From positions 1 to 56,033 of the forward strand of contig DSCM01000007.1 in the NCBI GenBank assembly GCA_011049115.1: a stretch of 56,033 bases of DNA. The letters are read 5' to 3'. Below are positions 16,574-30,029 of the stretch, one piece after another. How positions within the stretch are numbered: the first letter of the stretch is position 1; the number at the start of each line of letters is the position of its first letter. The notes under the pieces are model-generated. The model made no database searches and was not told the DNA's origin. It saw only the letters and a list, made by a program, of their open reading frames with translations. A program made the translations under genes and the position numbers. The DNA comes from Pseudomonadota bacterium (lineage in GTDB: Bacteria; Desulfobacterota; Anaeroferrophillalia; Anaeroferrophillales; Tharpellaceae).

Positions 16574-18584
16574 ATGCGACAACTGCTGCCTTCATCCGCG
16601 ATCATCAACGATCTCCTCACCGAAAATTGGGAGTTGCGCTGGCGGGTTTTTGAAATCTTCAACCAGATCCAGCTCGACTTGCGTAATTACGCTCGTTCCT
16701 CACGGGAATACAAAGAAGCTGTCAGTCTGTGCCTGGAGATGGCCAACCGCCTGAACGGCCCCAGCGATATCAATCTTCACCTGATTCTGATGGCGGCCTG
16801 GCTTCTGGGCAACAGTCATTTCCTGCTGCTCGTCCTGGAAAAGATCGGGGTCGATGATCCGGAAATCAACGACCCGGAGACCGTCAGACTCAAAAAACCG
16901 CTGCTCAACAATCAACCTCAGGCCTCTCTGTTCGCTTATTTTGCCTCCCTGCTGCAACGCGGTAAAGCGGTCGACGCCACCACGGCCTGCGCGGTCAAAA
17001 TCTTTCCCGCCGACCTTGCCCTACGTCTGCTCAGCGTTATTACCGACCCGGCGCCGCGGCGCGACGGTTTAAACCAGCTGAAGCATCTGTATCCGCAGCT
17101 TTTTTTCAACCAACAACTCCTCGGCGACCCTTCCCGGCTCGTCCGCCAAACCGAGTTTTTCGATTTTATCGGGCCGCCCACGGATAACGCCGAACGCGAG
17201 CGACTCTGCGCACTGCTCGAAAAGACATTGTCCTCTCGGGATAAGGACCAGGAGGAAGATATCATCCGGCTTATCGGTCGCCTGCGCCTGGACGAGTTTC
17301 AACCCCAGCTGCTGGCCCGCCTCAATGACAATCCCGCCGTCGCAACGGCCCTGGCCGAACTCGGGGTCCGGGGAGGGCTGTCGACAACTTCTGAAAAACG
17401 GCAGATCCTGGCGACGGAAAAAAAGAGAGGAAGCACTCTGCCACCTGGCCGGTTGTCAGGATGCAAAAACCGTTGCACTCTTGCGCGATCGCGCTCTGCG
17501 CGGCGGCCCCGACGAGCAACAGCTGGCCCTGACCGCCCTGGGTAAAATGCGCAGCTCCGCAGCCCTGAAGGTCTTACTGGAGACTCTTGCCGAAAGCCGC
17601 CGCCCTGAAAAGACAAAAGCCGTCCTGCGGGCCCTGTCCGGACCACCCTGGCCCGGAGAAAGCGCCGACGCGGCAAAGCAACTGGCCCGCCGGGCGGAAA
17701 ACATAGAACTCTATCCCGAGCTGCTCAAGGCCCTGGCCGCCCTTGAATGCAACCAGGACTGGACGGATCTTCTGGCCTCCTGTAAAAGCCCACTGCAGCA
17801 ACCTCATTACCGGGAAATCGCGCTCTTCATGTGCCGCCAGGCCCAGCGCCCGCAAATCCGTAAGCAACTGCTCAGTCTGCTTGAAGATCCCGACTGGAAT
17901 TTTTCCTATCGTCTGCTCAACCTGCTCTCCCCCCATTTCAGAAGCGATGATATTCCAACCCTCCTGAACCTGCTTAAAGACCGGGAAGAACGCCGGGCCC
18001 TGACCATCCAGGAACGTTTAACCAGAGGACAGGATCTCGAAAAGATAAACTCCGCCCTGACTGAATTTCTCAACCAACATCCGGAAATCGCCCACCTCGT
18101 CCTGACCAGGCTGTTGTTCGACATCGCCGCGGGAAACATGCCGACAAACCTGGAGCTGCTGACACAGGTCCACGGCCGGCCGCCGGAGCTTCAGGCCTTG
18201 CTGCTGGGCCAGCAACCCGACAGTGAACCCGATTTCCCGTTGCTGTTGGCGGCCGGACAGCTCTCTGAAATCATGGTTGACGGCAGCGATTGTTTTGCGC
18301 TAGTAGTACACCGTACCCGGCGCTACAGCGGCTTTTTTCGGGAGGCGGTCAACAGCATACTGCACCAGCTGCTGGAACAGGAAAGGGAACTGGCTGAGTT
18401 TCAGAGCCTGCCCATCCTGAATCGCATCATCGATTTCATTCGCGGCCAACCCCATTACCCGGATCTGCGGGAAAAGGTGCTGGCGCGCATTATCCGGATT
18501 ACCCGTAACTGCAGAGAGCTCAAGGTCTTCAGCGAAGCCTCGCAGACCCGCGATCTCAAGATCATAAAGATTCGCAAACCATAA
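16574..18584 (+). pseudogene. HEAT-like repeat protein, interrupted by a frameshift
   Basis: Two frames together encode about 670 residues of alpha-helical, leucine-rich repeats (for example EEALCHLAGCQDAKTVALLR and KALAALECNQDWTDLL), typical of HEAT/ARM-like scaffolds. The first frame reads well from the ATG at 16574 to about 17370 (ending NPAVATALAELG). It then becomes Arg/Ser-rich and stops at 17545, while the +1 frame continues the repeat pattern to 18584. The break lies in or near the G-rich stretch 17361-17380. Sequence error, a real lesion or frameshifting are all possible. The gene opens the operon with the Hsp70-like and AAA genes, with only 25 bases to the next ATG, so a scaffold or adaptor role for that system is likely. 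Confidence 0.65.
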
Positions 18585-18609
18585 AAAGAAGCCAAACCCA
18601 GCTAAAGTT

Positions 18610-20127
18610 ATGGCCAGGAACATCTCGATATTTTTCAACAACGTCAATCTTCAGGTTTACAGCCAGGACGAGGAAAACGGCCGCGTCGAGTCGGTCCATC
18701 TGGGGGAGATTTCAACAACGGTTGAAATCAACACTCAGGCCGGGCCGGAGAAGATCCACCTGATTCCAGCCATGATCTGTTATGGCGAACGCATCTACTG
18801 CGGCCAGGAGGTTTTTACCCACAAGAAATTCAACTCGCAGGCGACCTTTCGCTACATGAAGCAGTACATGAGCAAGAAACAGTACCTGCCGCGCATCATC
18901 GGCGACCAGGAAATCAGCACCTTTCAGGCCGCCACCGACCTTTTGATCAATATCATCGATCGACTCCACAGCCTGTACGGCAAGGATCAGATCGCAATGA
19001 TCGTTTTCATCGTCCAACCGCTCAATTTTTCCGTTTTCGCCTCGACCATCGAAGAGTTTTGCCTGCGTATCGGCCTGATCAACTATAAAATCGTGGATGA
19101 GGCGGTCTGCGCCCTGCTCGGTTACGACCTCGCCAACCAAACCGATCAACATCTTATTTATCTGCAATCCGGCTACACCACCATAGACCTTTATCTGGTC
19201 AAGATCGTGGAAAGCAGCCATGAGCCCCGCCTGCAGAGCGTCATCATCTGCAGCATGCACAAAAACTATGGTGCCGTCGATATCGACAAGGTGATTCAGG
19301 ACTATTTCGCCGAGCAGACTCCGCTCACCCTGAAAAAAGCCCGGGAAATCCGGGATCGACTCAACATCAAGCCCCTTTTTCAGGAAAACATCGACGGCAT
19401 CGAGTTACGTCTGACTCGCGACGAACTTCATGCGATGCTCGACTGCAAAGGCTACGGGAAAGAGCTCAAGGTTCTGTTACGCGACCTTTTCGACCTCGCT
19501 TCCGGCTTCGGGGTCACCTACGAAAATATCAGGTATGTTCTCGGAGCGGGACTGAGCCTGCCGACCTTTTACTACAACAATATCATGCGTAAATTTTTCG
19601 GTCCCAAGTTTCTGAGCGCCAAAGCCCATGAAACCATTCCGATCGGAGCCTTGCGCTATCTCAAAAAAGGCGACCGCCAGGCCACCATCAAAGCCAACTA
19701 CGCCCTCCGCAGCCGCACAACCAAGGGGGACGGCTACCGTTTCGACATCATTATACCCAAGGGCACTCCTTACCCGACCCAGAACGGAGTAACCAGCGTT
19801 ATCGCCAATGGTTTTTTCGCCGGCCAACTTGAAGTCGAACTCGACATCTTTCGCATGGATCGCCCCGAAAGCAGCAGTGATCGCGAGATCGTCATTGATG
19901 GCGCGGGACGCATGCATCTTGAAGAAAATCTGGGCGAAGAACAGCAGTCTTTCATCAACGAAGCCCGGCCCGAGATTATTCCACTTGATCCGCCGGCAAT
20001 GGACAACGAGCAGCGCCTGGAGATCACCTTCGACATCAGTCTCAATTGTGACCTGCTGATCACGGTCAAGGACCTGCGTCGCAATCAGACGATCTGGAAA
20101 AGAAAGAAATCCGTTCGCCTGGACTAA
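18610..20127 (+). CDS. Degenerate Hsp70-like protein
   Basis: A 505-residue protein with the Hsp70 layout: a nucleotide-binding domain of about 380 residues and a beta-rich C-terminal part like the substrate-binding domain (IIPKGTPYPTQNG, later LEITFDISLNCDLLITVKDL). The nucleotide motifs are altered. The first phosphate loop reads SIFFNNVNLQVYS instead of a DLGTTNS type. The second reads YLQSGYTTIDLYLV in place of DLGGGTFD. The adenosine motif reads VLGAGLSLPTFYYN. AMIVFIVQPLNFSVFASTIE and KIVDEAVCALLGYDL align with the canonical 'AVITVP' and 'NEPTAAALAYG' blocks. ATP hydrolysis may be lost, so it could be a pseudo-chaperone. Between the HEAT-like and AAA genes. Confidence 0.8.
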   Translation: MARNISIFFNNVNLQVYSQDEENGRVESVHLGEISTTVEINTQAGPEKIHLIPAMICYGERIYCGQEVFTHKKFNSQATFRYMKQYMSKKQYLPRIIGDQEISTFQAATDLLINIIDRLHSLYGKDQIAMIVFIVQPLNFSVFASTIEEFCLRIGLINYKIVDEAVCALLGYDLANQTDQHLIYLQSGYTTIDLYLVKIVESSHEPRLQSVIICSMHKNYGAVDIDKVIQDYFAEQTPLTLKKAREIRDRLNIKPLFQENIDGIELRLTRDELHAMLDCKGYGKELKVLLRDLFDLASGFGVTYENIRYVLGAGLSLPTFYYNNIMRKFFGPKFLSAKAHETIPIGALRYLKKGDRQATIKANYALRSRTTKGDGYRFDIIIPKGTPYPTQNGVTSVIANGFFAGQLEVELDIFRMDRPESSSDREIVIDGAGRMHLEENLGEEQQSFINEARPEIIPLDPPAMDNEQRLEITFDISLNCDLLITVKDLRRNQTIWKRKKSVRLD

Positions 20128-20144
20128 AGTTTGAGGAGTGTAAC

Positions 20145-20336
20145 GTGGATAAAAAGTCCCTTCCACCGACCAGCGGCATGTGCGAAAACAATAATATCCA
20201 TATCCGCATCACGGAAACCGGAGAAATATGTGCCTGGGGACTGAACGCCGAAGGCGAGAAATTGCTTTTCCGACTGACCGGAAATTTCGCCTTGGTTAAT
20301 AAATTCGAACATATGTCTTTCAACCTCTGCGGTTGA
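20145..20336 (+). CDS. 63-residue operon protein, unknown
   Basis: A small protein starting at GTG (20145), with GAGGAG eight bases upstream and 17 bases after the Hsp70-like stop. It is beta-strand rich (NIHIRITETGEICAWGLNAE) and ends with Cys-Gly (SFNLCG). I recognise no family. Its tight fit in the operon argues that it is real. The two C-terminal residues could matter if it is modified or conjugated, but there is no sequence evidence beyond their presence. Confidence 0.7.
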   Translation: MDKKSLPPTSGMCENNNIHIRITETGEICAWGLNAEGEKLLFRLTGNFALVNKFEHMSFNLCG

Positions 20337-20369
20337 TTTGACCTTTTGCCCATGGCCGGGAGATGACCA

Positions 20370-21860
20370 ATGACCTTTCTTGAACGCTTCAACACCACGA
20401 TTCGCAGCAATCATTCCCTGATCAACGTCATCACCTATGAAGAGGCCCGTTTTCTCTCCATGGTCGCTGAATCGCCGTTTTTCAAGGACAAGAATATCAT
20501 TACCTGGGATTTGGCCGACGGTTTCAACCCGATCAAGGGGGACATGCCCGGCATCAAGAATAAGGAACGCCCCGACCCCATCAACTGCCTGCTGGAAATC
20601 AAGAAATTCAGCGGCAGCGCCATCTTTATTCTGCGGGATTTCCACCTGCACTTTCGCGAAAGCATTATTTTACGCTCCCTGCGCAACCTCAACCATGATC
20701 TTCAGTTCACCAGAAAAACCATCGTCCTGACCACTCCCAGCCCGTCTCTGCCCCTGGAACTGCGGGAGGATATCTGCCAGATCGAACTGGAGCTGCCCGG
20801 CTACCTCGAAATCGAGAAGGAACTTGACAGCGTCGTCCTCAGCACCTCCCAAAGAAAACCGCCGACGCCGCAATTGAAAGAAAAAATCATTGAATCCACA
20901 CTGGGCCTGTCGATGGTCAATATCAAGAATCTTTTCTCAAGAATCATCATTATCCACGGGGCCATCGATGAACGAGCCATTGAAATCATTCTGCAGGAAA
21001 AACGCGGGATCATTAAAAAGGGAGAAATTCTTGAATTTTTTCCGGTCCAGGAAAGCCTTAACGATATCGGCGGCCTCGAAAATCTCAAGGCCTGGCTGCG
21101 CAAACGCAGCCAGGTTTTCACTCACAAAGCCAAGGATTACGGCCTGCCCGCTCCCAAGGGCATCCTGATCATCGGTATTCAGGGAACCGGTAAAAGCCTG
21201 ACCGCCAAAGCCACCGCCGGTCTCTGGAAGCTGCCGCTGTTACGCATGGACCTGGGCAAGGTTTTCGGCAGCCTCCTCGGCGAATCGGAACAGAACCTGC
21301 GCCAGGCGATTCAGCTGGCGGAAACCATCTCACCCTGCATTCTCTGGGTCGACGAGCTGGAAAAAGCCTTCTCCGGATCCTCCGGCGCGGCCGGCGACAG
21401 CGGGACATCGGCTCGAATTTTAGGAACCTTTCTCACCTGGATGCAGGAAAAAACCAAACCCGTCTTTATCATCGCCACCGGCAACGACGTCGCGCAACTC
21501 CCCCCCGAACTCATGCGCAAGGGCCGTTTCGATGAAATCTTTTTCGTGGATCTGCCCTCAACCACGGAGCGCCAGGCCATCTTCAAGGTCCTGCTCGAAA
21601 AAGTCCGTCCCGTCATTCGCCAGTTCAATCTTGAAAAACTGGCTCAGGCCACCACCGACTACAGCGGCGCCGAGATCGAACAGATCATCTATGACGCGAT
21701 GTTCAACGCCTTTGACGAAAACCAGCGCGAGTTCACGGAAACCGACATCCTCGCCAGTGTCAGCGAAATCATTCCCATTTCCCGACTGATGAGTGAAAAA
21801 ATCAATGCCCTGAAAGCCTGGGCGGCGCAACGCACCCGCAAAGCCAACAGCGAGAACTAA
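20370..21860 (+). CDS. Ycf46-type AAA ATPase
   Basis: A 496-residue AAA protein with the Ycf46 architecture. An N-terminal domain of about 240 residues (start MTFLERFNTTIRSNHSLINV, then VITYEEARFLSMV) is followed by a single AAA module. Walker A is GIQGTGKS (about residue 268; the usual Pro-Pro is Ile-Gln), Walker B is CILWVDELEKAF (about 322), sensor 1 is FIIATGNDVAQLPPELMRKG with the arginine finger in KGRFDEIFFVDLP, and sensor 2 lies near DYSGAEIEQIIYDA. Ycf46 proteins occur in cyanobacteria and plastids as well as many bacteria, often with Ycf35/DUF1257, exactly as here. The substrate is unknown; remodelling of the Hsp70/HEAT complex is an inference. Confidence 0.93.
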   Translation: MTFLERFNTTIRSNHSLINVITYEEARFLSMVAESPFFKDKNIITWDLADGFNPIKGDMPGIKNKERPDPINCLLEIKKFSGSAIFILRDFHLHFRESIILRSLRNLNHDLQFTRKTIVLTTPSPSLPLELREDICQIELELPGYLEIEKELDSVVLSTSQRKPPTPQLKEKIIESTLGLSMVNIKNLFSRIIIIHGAIDERAIEIILQEKRGIIKKGEILEFFPVQESLNDIGGLENLKAWLRKRSQVFTHKAKDYGLPAPKGILIIGIQGTGKSLTAKATAGLWKLPLLRMDLGKVFGSLLGESEQNLRQAIQLAETISPCILWVDELEKAFSGSSGAAGDSGTSARILGTFLTWMQEKTKPVFIIATGNDVAQLPPELMRKGRFDEIFFVDLPSTTERQAIFKVLLEKVRPVIRQFNLEKLAQATTDYSGAEIEQIIYDAMFNAFDENQREFTETDILASVSEIIPISRLMSEKINALKAWAAQRTRKANSEN

Positions 21861-21880
21861 CTATCTGCCAGGAGGCCGTT

Positions 21881-22258
21881 ATGTCCCATTTCACCAAGAT
21901 CAAAAGCAAAATCGCGGACAAGATTTTTCTGAAAAAAGCGATCAGCGACATGGAGCTGGAATACCAGGAAGGCAAACTCAAGGCCAAGGGCTGGCTCTGG
22001 AAAAAAGAAAAGGCCGATCTTATCATTCCCACCAAGAGCGGTTATGATATCGGTTTTCGCTTTAACGGCGAAACCTTTGATGTGGTGGCCGACTGGGATT
22101 CGATCAAGGATGTCGACCAAACCACCTTCATGAATACCCTGAATCAGCGCTACGCCTACAACGTGGTCAGGGATACCCTGGCCCAGCAGGGCTTTCTGCT
22201 GACCAACGAGGAAAATGAGGCCGGAACCATCAATATGACCCTGAGCCGGGAGGTCTAG
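21881..22258 (+). CDS. DUF1257 (Ycf35-like) protein
   Basis: A 125-residue protein of the Ycf35/DUF1257 family: start MSHFTKIKSKIADKIFLKKA, then SGYDIGFRFNGETFDVVADW and LNQRYAYNVVRDTLAQQGF, all family hallmarks. AGGAGG precedes the ATG, 20 bases after the AAA stop. No biochemical function is known. It co-occurs with Ycf46-type AAA proteins and with DUF2997 proteins, as here. The stop is TAG and the next gene follows four bases later. Confidence 0.92.
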   Translation: MSHFTKIKSKIADKIFLKKAISDMELEYQEGKLKAKGWLWKKEKADLIIPTKSGYDIGFRFNGETFDVVADWDSIKDVDQTTFMNTLNQRYAYNVVRDTLAQQGFLLTNEENEAGTINMTLSREV

Positions 22259-22262
22259 GACC

Positions 22263-22460
22263 ATGGAAAAAATCAAGATTAAAATCGGCGTCGACGGCGC
22301 TGTCGACCTGCAACTGGCGGGTTTTGAAGGCGGTAAATGCCTTGAGGTCACCAAACTGCTCGAAAACCTGCTCGGCAACGAGATCGTTGAACGCAAAATG
22401 ACTAGCGAATTCTACCTGACTGAAACGATTGAACAGGAAAGCAAAATTTCCAGTTCATGA
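22263..22460 (+). CDS. DUF2997 protein
   Basis: A 65-residue protein starting MEKIKIKIGVDGAVDLQLAG, with GGKCLEVTKLLENLLG and SEFYLTE, matching the DUF2997 pattern (beta-strand, then a helix with a Cys). It usually follows DUF1257. The start follows the DUF1257 stop by four bases, so translation is probably coupled. Function unknown; last gene of the operon. Confidence 0.88.
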   Translation: MEKIKIKIGVDGAVDLQLAGFEGGKCLEVTKLLENLLGNEIVERKMTSEFYLTETIEQESKISSS

Positions 22461-22686: not shown

Positions 22687-22729
22687 TTGACAATTCAGCT
22701 TGACAATTTGGACCGATGCGCTATATATT
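22687..22729 (+). promoter_or_regulatory. Sigma70 promoter with duplicated -35 box
   Basis: AGCTTGACAATT occurs twice in tandem (22684-22695 and 22697-22708). The second TTGACA (22700-22705) stands 18 bases before TATATT (22724-22729), giving a near-consensus promoter for the membrane-protein gene at 22817 with a leader of about 80 bases. The upstream TTGACA is a spare copy at an unusable distance. Confidence 0.65.
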
Positions 22730-22816: not shown

Positions 22817-23233
22817 ATGACGGCCGCCCGCCACAGAAATTACCGCCGCGATTACGCTTTCAGCCAGACGCAGGAAGCCGCCGGTTTTATTGAGATCATA
22901 CAGAAAATTCCGACTTTAACCAAGATCGGAGCCATTTTCCTGGTCATGGGTAAATTCATCGGCGTTCTTGCCATTCCGGCCGCTTTTATCCCCTCGCTCA
23001 ACGTTCTGGTCATTCCCTTGATCGTGACCTGGGGTTCTTTTGTTTTTCTTTCCATCGCGCTCTGCTCGGTTGATCATTTCCGCAGAAAGAAACTCCAGAG
23101 CAATGCGGACAAAATGGAACTCATTTCCGCCATGATCGACGAAACCCCAGAGCTGAGGGAGCGTCTGCAGGCGGAGCTGGAGCACAACCAAGACGGTTCC
23201 GCCGTCATTATCCCGTTGGCAGTCGGCCACTAA
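22817..23233 (+). CDS. Two-helix membrane protein, unknown
   Basis: A 138-residue protein with a basic cytoplasmic start (MTAARHRNYRRDYAFSQTQE) and two hydrophobic helices (about residues 37-57 and 60-84). A charged tail rich in Glu follows (NADKMELISAMIDETPELRE). No family recognised. It has its own strong promoter and a strong terminator, so it is a monocistronic gene. GGAG lies about eight bases before the ATG. Confidence 0.75.
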   Translation: MTAARHRNYRRDYAFSQTQEAAGFIEIIQKIPTLTKIGAIFLVMGKFIGVLAIPAAFIPSLNVLVIPLIVTWGSFVFLSIALCSVDHFRRKKLQSNADKMELISAMIDETPELRERLQAELEHNQDGSAVIIPLAVGH

Positions 23234-23603: not shown

Positions 23604-25000
23604 ATGGCTGGATTACCAAGGCACTACCTAACCCTGGTCGCGGGACTGTTTCTGGGCGGGCTGCTGCTGGCCGCGCCCGGCTGGGCCCTGGAATTGGGCC
23701 AGGCCGATATCTCCCTGAAAAACACGAGCAAATACCGAATTCAGTGGTCGGACGCTCCGACTGTAGCGCTAACCGTGGATGAAGACCGGGATCAGGATTT
23801 TTTACAACCCTGACCGCCGACGTCAAATGGCGAGAAAGCGGTTTAAGCTTTGCGGGTATGGCCACTTACGCCAAGGATCTGGACGGCACCCGGCAGGGTT
23901 CGGTCTTCCAGGATTACACCGACAGCCGCGGCAGCCACCGCCAGGATTTTGAATGTTACTATGCTTACCTTGAGAAAAGCTCCATATTCACAAAAGGTCT
24001 GACCCTGCGCGCCGGGCGCCAATATGCTTACGGCGCCGAAACCATCCATTTCGACGGCCTTTCGGCCCGCTACGAGAAACCCGCCTGGCTCGGACTGGAA
24101 ATCGAATCCTTCGGCGGCCGGGCGGTGCAGCACTACAGCCGGCCGAGTCCCGACGGCATCGGCGGCGCCAACCTGCGCCTTCGGCCCTTGCCCGGCCTGG
24201 TGATTGACTTGAACGCGGTAATTTTCGAGGAGACCTCCTGGGAAACCGCCATCTTCTGGCAGCCTTCCGATCTGTGGAAATTCCGCAGTCGGATTGCCTT
24301 TATCAATGACCATACCCGTTTTTTCGACTGCGGCCTGGAAACCACCCTGGCCGCGACCGGCACGGTGCTCGATTTTTCCCTGTATCGTCGCTATGCCATC
24401 GCTTCCCAAGCTGATTTTCTCTTTGATTTCAGCTACACCGTTGATGAAGCCTTAAGTTCGGAATTCAATCGTCTTTATCTGATGCAGGAAGAGGGCTACC
24501 TTGAATTTGATTTTCGCCTCAGTCAGCCCCTGCCGATTTTACCGGGCTGCACAATTTATACCCGCTATACCAATCGCAGTCTGGCGCACGGCGAAAACGA
24601 GAATCTCTATAATACCGATTTCCAACGCCTTACCGCCGGTTTTGACCTACTTGACAGTTTGGGTTGGCATGGTTTTCACGCCGGCGCCGGCGTCAGCTAC
24701 TGGTGGGAAGACCGCGATCTTTTCTACGAAGGCGAATCGACCTCCTGGTTTGCCGATATCAGCCAAACCCTGTTCCAGCGCCTGGAGCTGGCCGCCGGCT
24801 TCTATCACAAAAGAGAAGACGTCAACAGTCTCCTCGAGGACCAGGCTTCGACCAGCTGGCGCCTGGCCCTCGGCTGGCAAACCTGCGCCCATTCCAGGGT
24901 TGAAATCGCCTATGAATACGCCCAGGATGATTATTATGAAGATGAGCTCGGGGTTGATCATTTCAACCAGGTTACGGTCAGACTTGATTTTAACTATTAA
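23604..25000 (+). pseudogene. Outer-membrane beta-barrel protein, frameshifted
   Basis: An outer-membrane barrel of about 465 residues encoded in two frames. Frame zero from the ATG at 23604 (AGAGGA upstream) gives a signal peptide (LTLVAGLFLGGLLLAAPGWA) and the first strands, then TGA at 23811. The -1 frame continues with alternating aromatic strands (RESGLSFAGMATYAKDLDG, then LTLRAGRQYAYGAETIHFDG) to a C-terminal strand ending in Tyr (VTVRLDFNY), typical of barrels of the alginate-export or MtrB kind. The switch lies at T_TTT_TTA (23798-23804). It directly precedes two multihaem cytochromes, so it probably forms the pore of an electron conduit. Mutation, sequence error or programmed shift are open. 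Confidence 0.7.
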
Positions 25001-25063
25001 TTGAAGATCATTTTCAGATCCGGACCATCAACCTCTTCTTTTAAGGACGGAACAGGCAACTCC

Positions 25064-25966
25064 ATGAACAAACAAAAGAGAAAGATTTTCCGACTGGGAC
25101 TTTTCGCAGTTATCTTCGGGGCCTTGATTTTCGGAGCCTGCAAAACCTCGGTCGGACTTAAATTCAGTCACCGCTTTCACATTCTCGAGCAGGAAACCGG
25201 CTGCGAGCAGTGCCACAAAAAAAATGCCGCCGGCGACTTCGCCGCGGCCACCATGGCTAATTGCCGGGAATGCCATGAATTCAACCCCGAAGAGCCTTCC
25301 CCTGAATGCCTCCTCTGCCATACAACGGAAAGCGCGAAAAATGGGTATGCAATCACCCCGGCCGGCAAACCTGGAGGTATGGCCGATCTGATTTTCAGCC
25401 ACGAGACCCACGCCGATCTGAGCTGCGACAACTGTCACAACGAGATCACCAAAGAGCGAGGGCTGAACTTCGGGCCGAACATGGCGAGCTGCCTTGACTG
25501 CCACCGGAAACAGGAAGGGCCACAGGACTGTGAAGCCTGCCACGAACAGATCAGAGCTGAAAACGCTCCGCCCGATCATGCCGGAGACTGGGAGAAAAAA
25601 CACGGCTTTGCTTCCCGGCTGTCAACCGCCTGCGCCTACTGCCACTCCGATCGCCAGGCCTTCTGCGAGAACTGTCACCGCACGGAAAAACCCACTGATC
25701 ACAATTTCGGTTGGAAAACCACCGGGCATGGCGTTGAAGCCGGACACGACCGGCGCGGTTGCGCGGTCTGTCATGACGCCGGTTACTGCATTGACTGCCA
25801 CAAACACCAGAAGCCGGTTTCGCACTTTCGGGGAGACTGGATGAGCTATCAGCGCGAAAACGGCCACAGCGAAGCCGCCCGGCGTAATTTTCGCAGCTGT
25901 AATGTCTGCCACGAAACCGGCGACTGCATGGACTGTCACAAGGGCATAATTTTACGCAAAAAATGA
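25064..25966 (+). CDS. Dodecahaem c-type cytochrome lipoprotein
   Basis: A 300-residue lipoprotein with twelve CXXCH sites (CEQCH, CRECH, CLLCH, CDNCH, CLDCH, CEACH, CAYCH, CENCH, CAVCH, CIDCH, CNVCH, CMDCH). The signal peptide ends in a lipobox (LIFGAC), so it should be anchored to a membrane, most likely the outer one. I start at 25064 (MNKQKRKIFR) because the basic signal peptide begins there. Haem spacing is dense, as in wire-like cytochromes such as ExtA/ExtD-type dodecahaems. It follows the barrel by 63 bases and precedes the octahaem protein by 34, so one conduit is likely. Confidence 0.93.
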   Translation: MNKQKRKIFRLGLFAVIFGALIFGACKTSVGLKFSHRFHILEQETGCEQCHKKNAAGDFAAATMANCRECHEFNPEEPSPECLLCHTTESAKNGYAITPAGKPGGMADLIFSHETHADLSCDNCHNEITKERGLNFGPNMASCLDCHRKQEGPQDCEACHEQIRAENAPPDHAGDWEKKHGFASRLSTACAYCHSDRQAFCENCHRTEKPTDHNFGWKTTGHGVEAGHDRRGCAVCHDAGYCIDCHKHQKPVSHFRGDWMSYQRENGHSEAARRNFRSCNVCHETGDCMDCHKGIILRKK

Positions 25967-26000
25967 TCTTTTCAGATATTTCAATTTCAGGAGGGTTTTA

Positions 26001-29000
26001 ATGAAAAAAACAGCATTATTTGTGGTCGCGCTCTGCCTGCTGCTGCCGACCGTTATCTGGGCCGCTCATCCCCCGGTAGTTCTCTATGACCGTCAGGGCA
26101 ATCGCATCGTCGATCAACTGGACGAAAGCGACACCGTCACCGCCGCCTCAGGCAGCGTTTACCAGCGCGGTCCGGCCTACAGTCCGAAACAGAGCTGCGG
26201 CAAATGCCATGATTACCAGTCGGTGACCAAGGCTTACCATTTCCGCGAAGGGGCCGGCCCCAATGGTGAAAACCTCAGCGATACTTGGGTTTCCGAGAAT
26301 AAAGACAGCCGCCTTAACAAATACCTCGCCCATGCCTACGGCCATCTGTTAAGTCCAGGCCAATTTGGAGCCTGGTGACCTCCGTCCTACCGCCAGTTGG
26401 CGGCCAAAGGCGTGCGCGGCAGTAAGAACAACCCTTTTTCCAGTGAAGGTAAGCCTTATTTCTTCGACCAGGGTACGGCCGACCAGATGGCCACCTGTTA
26501 TTCCTGTCATCCTGGCGGCGGACCGGCCGAAGGCATTGTCAATAGTGACGGCTCGGTGACCCCCTACGACGATCCCAGCCTGACCCCGTTGCATACCTAT
26601 GACCGCGATTTCTACGGCTACACCGCCGACGACGTCACCATGGCAATCTACGGCGGTGAAACGATTGCCGAAAGCGTCGCCAATATCGGTGAACCCAAAG
26701 CCCACGACTGGGGTCATTCCGGGGTTATGGAAGCCGACTGTCTGCTCTGTCATATCGATCCCGAAAGCAGCTATACCTACCGGGCCGCCGACGGTCTCAA
26801 GGTCCAGCCCTTCCGTCCGAGAATGATGATTTTCGCCGAACGCAACCAGGATAATACCGTCAGCCGGATTTCTCTGGGCATGCCCAGCCTGACCGGTCTG
26901 CGGAACAGTTCGGCTCTTTATTATTCCAACGATCCTCAGCGCATGGGCCGCCCGACGCCGATGCTGGCCCTGGCCGGCCTGCCCAAGGAAATGGTCGGCG
27001 AAATGATGCAGATGTGGGTGGACGGCCTCGCCAACATGGAAGCCCACGGCCTTTCTCTGCCTTTTGCCCTCTACGGCCAGAACGTCCCCAAAATCTGGGA
27101 TCAGTCCACCGGCATGCTCAAAGCCGAATACTGCGCCAATCCCAACGGCGTCGCCGATGAAATGGGCCGGCTCCAGGGCGCTCAGGCCGGGATCATGGAA
27201 CTTTTCGGCGGTTTTCTCCAGTATCTGATCGGCAAGAACATTCTCCCGCCCGATGCCGACATGAACATGATGATGGGTGTTTTCTTCAACGATTTCGTCT
27301 ATGCCTATCAGATCAAATATCCGATGCCGGGCATGGATCAGCTCTTGCCCGTGCCCTACGGCCTGCGCGCTTATGAACCCGGCAAATTCTACACCGACTG
27401 GGATAACCCGCATGCCTCGGTCCGCGACTATGTCCGTTCGGGGCTGATCGAAGGCGAGGGCATTCCCTATGCCGGCCGGGTCGGCGAGGAATGGAGCGCC
27501 GCCATGTTCGCCATGGGCATGATCATGCAGGGCGACTATACTTATTTTGACCCGACTACCGGTCAACCCGACATGGCCCGGGTCATCGACGATCTGCAGC
27601 AGGGCAAACTGCCGGAAAACTACGTCGCTCCGGTCATGCATAAATATCTGCCGTCCTTTTTCGACTTCATCCCGGTCACCGGCCTGATGGGGCTCGATTT
27701 CAACGGTGACGGCGCTCCGGTTACCTACGTCCGCATCGATCGTAACGGCGAGGAGTGGCAGCCCAAAGCTTATTACAATATTGCCGACCTCAATGCCGAC
27801 GGAGCCCTGCCCATGAGTGAGATGTTCGGTGGCGTTGAAGAGCGGAACAGCTGGAAGTGGGTCAAGGTCTGCGGCCAGTGCCATGTCATGACCAAGGACC
27901 ACGGCAACAGCGAATGGACCTATGGACGCCACTACAATCTCGGCATGCCCTCCGACTGGGTCAAAAACGGCCAATATGTCAACCTGACCGACGATCCCGA
28001 GGCCAAGGGCTACGACGTCCATATGTCGAGTCGCAAAATGGGTTGCGGCACCTGTCACTTGCGTGAAGGCGGCAGCCTTGAAAATGTCCATAACTTCAAA
28101 AAAGGGGTCGATACAGCCCACATGGTCCGCAACGACCTTGATGCCAACCCCAGACCCAAAAGCTGCGAAGGCTGTCATCTGGCCGGCGAGGACATGCAAG
28201 CCGTCAACCCCTCGGCCAGCCACGAAAAGGTATTCGGCGAAAGCACGGGCCGCCACCTGGCCGTCGTCGCCTGTCAGACCTGTCATGTCCCTTATAAAAA
28301 ATCCTGGCGCTTCCGGGCTTTTGACGATACTTTAGGCTGCTACACCAACTTCGATAATTTGCTGGGTTATAATATTCTGCCCGGAGGCGATGCCAAGGTC
28401 ATGGCCTTTCCTCTGCCCGCCTACGCCATCGCCCCGGTTTATTCAACCTCCCCGGGTTACGGCATTCCCCATTTTCACATGGTCGCCAACCATCTCGAGG
28501 CCGACGGCAAGGGCATCCAGCCCAGTGATTTTCTCTCGCAGATGGCCGATTATTTCTACCAAGACGGCGAGAGTGACCCAGGCCGGCTGGTCAACGGCAT
28601 GCCGACCAACTTCAAGTTCGATTTCTGGAAATACTTTCTCCAGGCCAATTACGAAGCCTACAAAGCGATGGGTGTGCCCCTGACCTACGATCCGGTCCAC
28701 GACAATGAGGTTTTCCCGCCGCTCTACTACGCCAACGGCATCAACGGCTATCCCCAGGTGGTCATCGGCAACCCGATCACGGTGATGACCTGGGTTGACA
28801 CCAATCCCCAACCCGACACCGACATGTCGGATCTACCCTACGGCGGAGCCAAGGTGCTTTATCTTAAGGAAATCAACGCCGCGATCAAAGCCTACCACCG
28901 ACCGGTGCAGCTCGGCATGGTCGATCCCATGCAGCAGTTCATGATTCCGGCCAACGACCCGACCTGGGCCGCCAACCCCAACGTCGGCAAGATCATTCTC

Positions 29001-30029
29001 AAAGAAAGCGGCTATGTCATCTTCGATCATAACGGCGACATGTTCCCCGATATCTGGTGGGACGAGGACGTCAAGGCCATGCGGGAAGCCCTGGTCAAGG
29101 TGCTCAAAGCCGAAGGCGCGGCCGATCCCAAGCCGGCAATTTTTATGGCGGCCCATTATTTCTCCGACAGTCACGCGGTGCTGCCGGCAGGAAAAGCCCT
29201 GGGCGCGCAATCCTGTAACGACTGTCACGGCGATGCCGGCAAGGATGCCGGAGCACACCGGGTTACCGACCGCCTAATCCAGTTTCTGCCCTGGGCGCCG
29301 CCCTGGTTCCGGGATGAAAACCGGCTGATGACCTACGATCCGGAGCATGGCATGGTAGCGGCCAACCCCAACGGCCTCTTTCTGGTTAACGGCGAGGTCG
29401 CCTACATTCAGCCGCAGATGGCCAACAATATGAGTTTTCTGGGGGCCCGGGCGGATGAGATTCTAAAACTCAGCCATCACCATGCCGAAGAACTTTTCAC
29501 CCTGACGGCGGAAGGCAGCGTCACCGGAGACCAGATCACCGAGATCGATCCGCAGCTTCTGACCACCCTGGAGCGGTCAACCAGTTATCACCGCCAGGTC
29601 GTCAACGGCCCCTGGATGGACAAAACCTACTTCTACATTCCCGAAGAATTAGAGCCCTCTCTGACGGCCTGCGGTTTCACGGTCGGAGGCGAGGAAGAGG
29701 TCTACCTCAGCGGTCGTGGTTTTGCCAGGGCCTATGTGCTGCGCTACGAATTGGCTTCACCGCATGAAGCCGAGACCGGTGCGGGGCATGAACATGCACT
29801 TCCGGCGACAATTATTCGTCTGCCCTTTACCGGCAGCGAACCCGAAATCTGGACCCTGGGCGAGCATGATACCTTTTTCAGACCGACGACTGCAGCCGAG
29901 ATTGTCGGTCATCAAGGCGCCTACGTACTGGTCAAGGTTTCGGAGCCGGGCGAATATGTCGCGGTCGAACCGGGCGCCGGCAGCGGCAACCAGTTGCTCT
30001 ATGACCTGTGGGGAGCCTTTTTCAATTAA
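26001..30029 (+). CDS. Large octahaem cytochrome with in-frame TGA
   Basis: A frame of 1342 codons with a single TGA at 26376-26378 (codon 126). The N-terminal part has a signal peptide (TALFVVALCLLLPTVIWAAH) and one CXXCH (CGKCHDY). After the TGA the same frame runs another 1216 codons with seven more sites: CYSCH, CLLCH, CGQCH, CGTCH, CEGCH, CQTCH and CNDCH. Without readthrough the remainder has no signal peptide. A hairpin follows the TGA (26390-26403, CCGCC-AGTT-GGCGG). Candidate meanings are selenocysteine, leaky readthrough or a TGG-to-TGA lesion; the residue before is Trp. AGGAGG lies upstream. It is probably the secreted or surface partner of the dodecahaem lipoprotein. Family function is not established. 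Confidence 0.8.

Follow-up and report, generated by a model that had tools for sequence, protein, structure and literature searches.

A conserved six-gene operon of Desulfobacterota that places a Ycf46-type AAA ATPase, DUF1257 and DUF2997 beside an Hsp70-derived protein with degenerate nucleotide loops

We analyzed a stretch of 56,033 nucleotides (hereafter the window; contig DSCM01000007.1 of assembly GCA_011049115.1) from a deep-sea sediment bacterium of the 'Ca. Tharpella' group, Desulfobacterota. Six genes lie head to tail on its forward strand. They encode a HEAT-repeat protein (16574–18584); an Hsp70-derived protein with a nucleotide-binding domain (NBD) and the β-part of the substrate-binding domain (SBD-β), degenerate nucleotide loops and apparently no lid (18610–20127); a 63-residue protein with a GTG start and a C-terminal Cys-Gly (p63; 20145–20336); a Ycf46-type AAA ATPase (20370–21860); a DUF1257 protein of the Ycf35 type (21881–22258); and a DUF2997 protein with an invariant Cys (22263–22460). 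The six genes and their intergenic gaps of 25, 17, 33, 20 and 4 bases agree with the original prediction, which had also treated the HEAT-like gene as a single open frame, whereas it occupies two. In the five intact operon genes tested, p63 included, the ratio of non-synonymous to synonymous change (pN/pS) is 0.05–0.42, indicating purifying selection.

The window's order was covered by 22 genomes, not all of them complete; the Hsp70-like protein was found in 18, and the same six-gene order is seen in every sufficiently long contig of these relatives, in both families. In a sample of 297 genomes of the phylum, 29 possess DUF1257. The Hsp70-like gene is linked in 18 of these, three contigs are too short to decide, and the eight genomes without it carry an outgroup Ycf46, mostly of a phage-like type. 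A different arrangement, Ycf46-DUF1257-DUF2997-HEAT-Hsp70 with no p63 gene, was observed at loci L055, L059, L061, L062, L064 and L070. The original prediction held that the unit would be accidental if the Hsp70-like and HEAT genes were not kept beside Ycf46 and DUF1257 in related genomes; they are kept, and the six genes are strongly supported as a real, conserved unit rather than an accident of gene order.

Taken alone, the Hsp70-like protein has no Pfam match and weak matches to DnaK and HscA, and the profile of its family matches DnaK across the NBD and SBD-β (E 2e-25, profile positions 46–420). Judging from length and alignment, the protein probably stops before the lid. Its loops were compared by alignment against the genome's own DnaK. 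Where DLGTTN and DLGGGT are expected, the window protein has SIFFNNVN and QSGYTTI, and the canonical catalytic phosphate loops are absent. Throughout the window's family the loops read FFNNVN and xFGYTTI, and the adenosine motif is changed too. The L055-type loci have half-lost loops (DLGNYN and DFGFSS), and distant members keep DFGT.N, DFGGGT, GGS, K70 and E171, often with an adjoining GrpE-like gene. The altered phosphate loops described originally are confirmed, and belong to a series that can be ordered from canonical through half-lost to absent in the window's order. No match to the GrpE model was found at loci of this order or of the L055/L062 group; GrpE is present beside Hsp70 at L092, L093, L115, L129, L141, L164, L166 and others. 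Because the canonical phosphate loops are missing from the window clade, DnaK-like cycling is unlikely there. An apparent 831-residue fusion of the L061 Hsp70 was judged to be an artefact of an ORF prolonged at its 5' end in GC-rich DNA, the real start lying near VPDLTIDLGNYNT.

Two AAA+ domains lie in tandem in Ycf46, and the first of them is dead. The active C-terminal AAA domain (residues 265–394; PF00004, 101.5 bits), followed by AAA_lid_3 (residues 419–461), carries the Walker A motif GIQGTGKS, the Walker B motif VDELEK and the Arg finger RKGRFD. The N-terminal region (approximately residues 1–215), modelled at a predicted local distance difference test (pLDDT) score of 85, matches the AAA+ domains of RFC, RuvB and Msp1 in structure (E ~1e-6), has no P-loop, and shows an invariant DFH at the expected Walker B site. 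The DUF1257 protein (PF06868, 85.8 bits against a cut-off of 22.2) begins with MSH and is modelled as a confident α/β fold (pLDDT 93) with no PDB structure match below E 0.1. The DUF2997 protein (PF11211, 49.8 bits against a cut-off of 24.1) has a GxxGxxC motif. PDB profile searches with both proteins gave insignificant matches throughout.

The p63 gene has no Pfam match. The original prediction of a tiny protein ending in Cys-Gly is borne out by 17 unique homologues, confined to the Tharpella order, in which GEI..WGL, TGN and the C-terminal CG are invariant, and by a pN/pS of 0.35–0.42. Comparison of p63 with DUF2997 by hhalign gave a probability of 23% with just 14 columns aligned.

In the window the HEAT gene changes frame near 17361–17390. 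An intact homologue of 675 residues (L060), used in tblastn, follows the frame 16574–17545 in its N-terminal part, to about 17370, and the frame 17325–18584 in the remainder, from 17364. Where the gene is complete in relatives, it forms one intact open reading frame (ORF) of 672–686 residues, and HEAT_2 repeats match both the window protein and 13 of 14 relatives. The frame change reflects either a lesion or an error of sequencing or assembly; a programmed frameshift is unlikely, since the ORF is uninterrupted in relatives. An effector-associated domain, EAD8, suggested at the N-terminus of the window protein (E 0.0026), was rejected, being absent among the matches of the 14 relatives.

When species genomes were scanned with the Hsp70 family, 79 loci from many phyla were recovered, many of them with Ycf46 and several also with DUF1257 and DUF2997. 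Ycf46 lies near Hsp70 in Anaerolinea and other Chloroflexota, Chlorobi, β-proteobacteria including Accumulibacter, Verrucomicrobia and Eisenbacteria, and other Desulfobacterota carry a related Hsp70 beside all three genes. Of 301 sampled Chloroflexota genomes, four have DUF1257, in three of which Hsp70 is close by. Recurrent partners in these outside clusters are GrpE-like genes directly 5' of Hsp70 (Pfam, NCBIfam), NrdG-like radical-SAM proteins, and scaffold-like proteins (HEAT, WD40 with HEAT, FGE, FGE arrays and a kinase-Ycf46 fusion). On a Pseudanabaena plasmid the order is GrpE-Hsp70-DUF1257-AAA_21-hypothetical-DUF2997-Ycf46-WD40. The window's order has HEAT and p63 where others have GrpE, radical-SAM and FGE. 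Several Ycf46 paralogues and multiple FGE genes were observed in Accumulibacter (L164, 2573–19538), which also has a protein kinase-Ycf46 fusion, and in a planctomycete (L191). A second Hsp70-like family, with no Ycf46 nearby, occurs in Acidobacteria, Planctomycetes and Myxococcota (L118, L126, L128, L144 and others).

The Ycf46 proteins of Hsp70-linked loci form, for the most part, one cluster, and outgroup and phage-like forms fall outside it; the exceptions are L155, which is Hsp70-linked yet lies in the outgroup part, and L188 and L167, which lie inside without Hsp70. Distances between Ycf46 proteins are correlated with those between the Hsp70 proteins (mirror-tree r 0.893, 29 loci, 0/2000 permutations), shared ancestry explaining part of r. 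This divergence bears on whether the operon merely co-transcribes two independent modules under shared regulation, a Ycf46/DUF1257/DUF2997 stress ATPase and an Hsp70-like/HEAT unit that are not joined. Such an arrangement could account for the phages and outgroup loci in which the trio has no Hsp70 beside it and for the rotated module order between lineages, but the linkage survives rearrangement and spans phyla and the divergence is correlated, and we regard it as very improbable.

Relatives of Ycf46 were identified on at least 179 viral contigs, and PHROG 8638 represents full-length Ycf46, which the window protein matches over its full length (E 4e-142). Both DUF1257 and DUF2997 are present in 16 of the 80 Ycf46 viral contigs examined, and no Hsp70 partner was found among them. 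Because some phages carry the trio without Hsp70, the three genes look like an autonomous core, in which DUF1257 and DUF2997 would be ancient partners of Ycf46, with Hsp70 as a cellular addition. The phage-borne trio prompts the question whether the motor has been taken over to serve proteins of the virion or of replication. Phage-like islands with a Ycf46 of about 470 residues, DUF1257 and DUF2997 were observed at L071–L074, L074 having amidoligase-like, ParB-like and weak terminase matches. A DUF1257 gene lies inside a phage-tail gene cluster on the Treponema succinifaciens plasmid pTRESU01 (L168, 8001–8408), and radical-SAM, Ycf46, DUF1257 and DUF2997 genes are consecutive on one viral contig (L210, 7363–10402).

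The original suggestion that an AAA protein, an Hsp70-like protein and an adaptor make up a remodelling machine is plausible. We lean, by a modest measure, toward the view that the operon products form a complex dedicated to client remodelling, in which Hsp70 has become a nucleotide-independent adaptor. Ycf46 would be the motor, expected to assemble into a hexamer and to pull on the client or thread it. The Hsp70-like protein would have descended from a working, GrpE-assisted Hsp70 of the same gene cluster and, in the window's order, would most probably act, without need of ATP, as a receptor or adaptor for clients that retains the NBD/SBD-β body. The HEAT protein would be a scaffold replacing the WD40, FGE or HEAT fusions of other lineages, and p63 an accessory peculiar to this lineage that may regulate or tether. 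Several points weigh against this model. No one neighbour gene is common to all lineages; the role of DUF1257 is a guess, because no solved fold matched it; and the HEAT frameshift, unless it is a sequencing or assembly error, would leave the complex incomplete in this strain. Furthermore, K70 is kept in Hsp70 of the window type, and E171 is kept in the window's family (it is Gly in the other family), so that weak nucleotide binding may persist. More broadly, and tentatively, Ycf46, DUF1257, DUF2997 and Hsp70, with or without GrpE, and a HEAT, WD40 or FGE scaffold could form an undescribed multi-phylum chaperone system, in one order of which Hsp70 would receive substrates without nucleotide and serve a tandem AAA+ motor.

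The same components might instead detect invaders and set off an effector, as a conflict or anti-phage system in which AAA, Hsp70, HEAT/WD40/FGE and small proteins cooperate, much as in the chaperone-based conflict systems of Kaur et al. (2020). Plasmid versions adjoin toxin–antitoxin genes, or an ATPase or RloB gene stands beside or among their core genes; loci of Accumulibacter and Planctomycetes/Verrucomicrobia contain FGE arrays with as many as six or seven genes, and a kinase-AAA fusion; and GTPase-centred conflict systems contain HSP70 and GrpE (PMC7159879). We nevertheless consider this explanation unlikely. No effector (nuclease, TIR, protease or pore) was recognized among the operon genes, the EAD8 hint fails in relatives, and phages themselves carry Ycf46, some of them the whole trio. 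The AAA domain of Ycf46 resembles IetA, but scores 88 bits against a cut-off of 510; with no protease among the operon genes, membership in the IetAS anti-phage system was rejected as generic AAA similarity. In the window's order the operon is near-fixed and its neighbour genes are partly stable, which speaks for a housekeeping or stress role. Defence is thus disfavoured in this lineage, and is possible for the plasmid- and phage-borne relatives.

Downstream of the operon, a gene for a 138-residue protein with two hydrophobic, probably transmembrane, segments (22817–23233, forward strand) recurs 3' of the operon in L054, L060, L065, L067 and L068, with two copies in L054 and L067. A strong promoter-like site, TTGACA-18-TATATT, at 22700–22729 lies 5' of this gene, which is probably its own transcription unit. 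The block at 23858–30029 stays beside the operon in several relatives; it encodes a 380-residue protein without a Pfam match and multihaem cytochromes (Cytochrome_C7, MtrC/MtrF-like) of 321 and 1210 residues, and looks like an extracellular electron conduit. The presence of multihaem cytochrome genes 3' of the operon in part of the window's family is among the observations consistent with an assembly, activation or repair factor, in which Ycf46 and its partners would load or reactivate an Fe-S, radical or haem enzyme. Others are the NrdG-like radical-SAM gene in many clusters and one phage locus, the DUF2997-ycf35-fed7 cluster of Synechocystis (PMC4284462), and the loss of ycf35 and ycf46 in red algae, which follows habitat (PMC5940233). 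However, the cytochrome block is not retained in the sister family or L078, operons of the window type have no NrdG-like gene, and the PF13353 matches in the window's own genome are weak, making a metallo-enzyme factor an improbable alternative.

In cyanobacteria and plastids, Ycf46, Ycf35 (DUF1257) and DUF2997 have long been proteins without a known function, and only two papers of the searchable literature name DUF2997. No description of Hsp70 together with Ycf46 was found in that literature, which includes few subscription journals, the sole joint mention being a plastid genome paper; to our knowledge, the partnership is previously undescribed. A neighbourhood shared with Hsp70, and often GrpE, places the trio in protein remodelling, and opens its function to testing. 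With the loop-decay series one can study how Hsp70 loses its ATPase yet keeps its place in a gene cluster; if the broader chaperone system is real, the series would lead, within one machine, from an active Hsp70 to a pseudo-Hsp70 by natural steps.

Among known systems, chaperone-based conflict systems were described by Kaur et al. (2020). The HSP70 GTPase-centric and MoxR-vWA ternary systems (PMC7159879) are similar in joining chaperone NTPases with HEAT, β-propeller, FGE and radical-SAM proteins, and differ in that the operon described here has no MoxR, vWA or GTPase. Its AAA protein is of the classical AAA/CDC48 type and no vWA match was found in the operon; as far as literature searches show, that paper does not mention Ycf46, DUF1257 or DUF2997. 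The DnaK/GrpE-ClpB bichaperone likewise pairs an Hsp70 with an AAA+ motor for remodelling. However, ClpB has two active AAA domains as well as N and M domains, whereas Ycf46 has one active AAA domain and neither N nor M; the first Ycf46 AAA domain lacks a P-loop, and membership in this system was rejected. Unlike DnaK of the bichaperone, the window Hsp70 is without the loops and, probably, the lid. The Ycf46 of cyanobacteria and plastids (Synechocystis slr0374) shares its name and a COG0464-type similarity with the window's AAA protein, which places both in one AAA family, and DUF1257 (Ycf35) and DUF2997 are partners of Ycf46 there too, as in the duf2997-ycf35-fed7 cluster; the known phenotype, as cited in PMC12172450 from Jiang et al. 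(2015), concerns CO2 utilisation. In the literature found, the chromosomal ycf46 genes of cyanobacteria have no described Hsp70 or HEAT partner, whereas the window has both. The Pseudanabaena galeata plasmid pPg_01 (L166) differs from the window in its canonical Hsp70 loops, in having GrpE, in WD40 replacing HEAT and in the insertion of an AAA_21 ATPase and a 167-residue hypothetical gene, but it shares with the window co-directional Hsp70, DUF1257, DUF2997 and Ycf46 genes.

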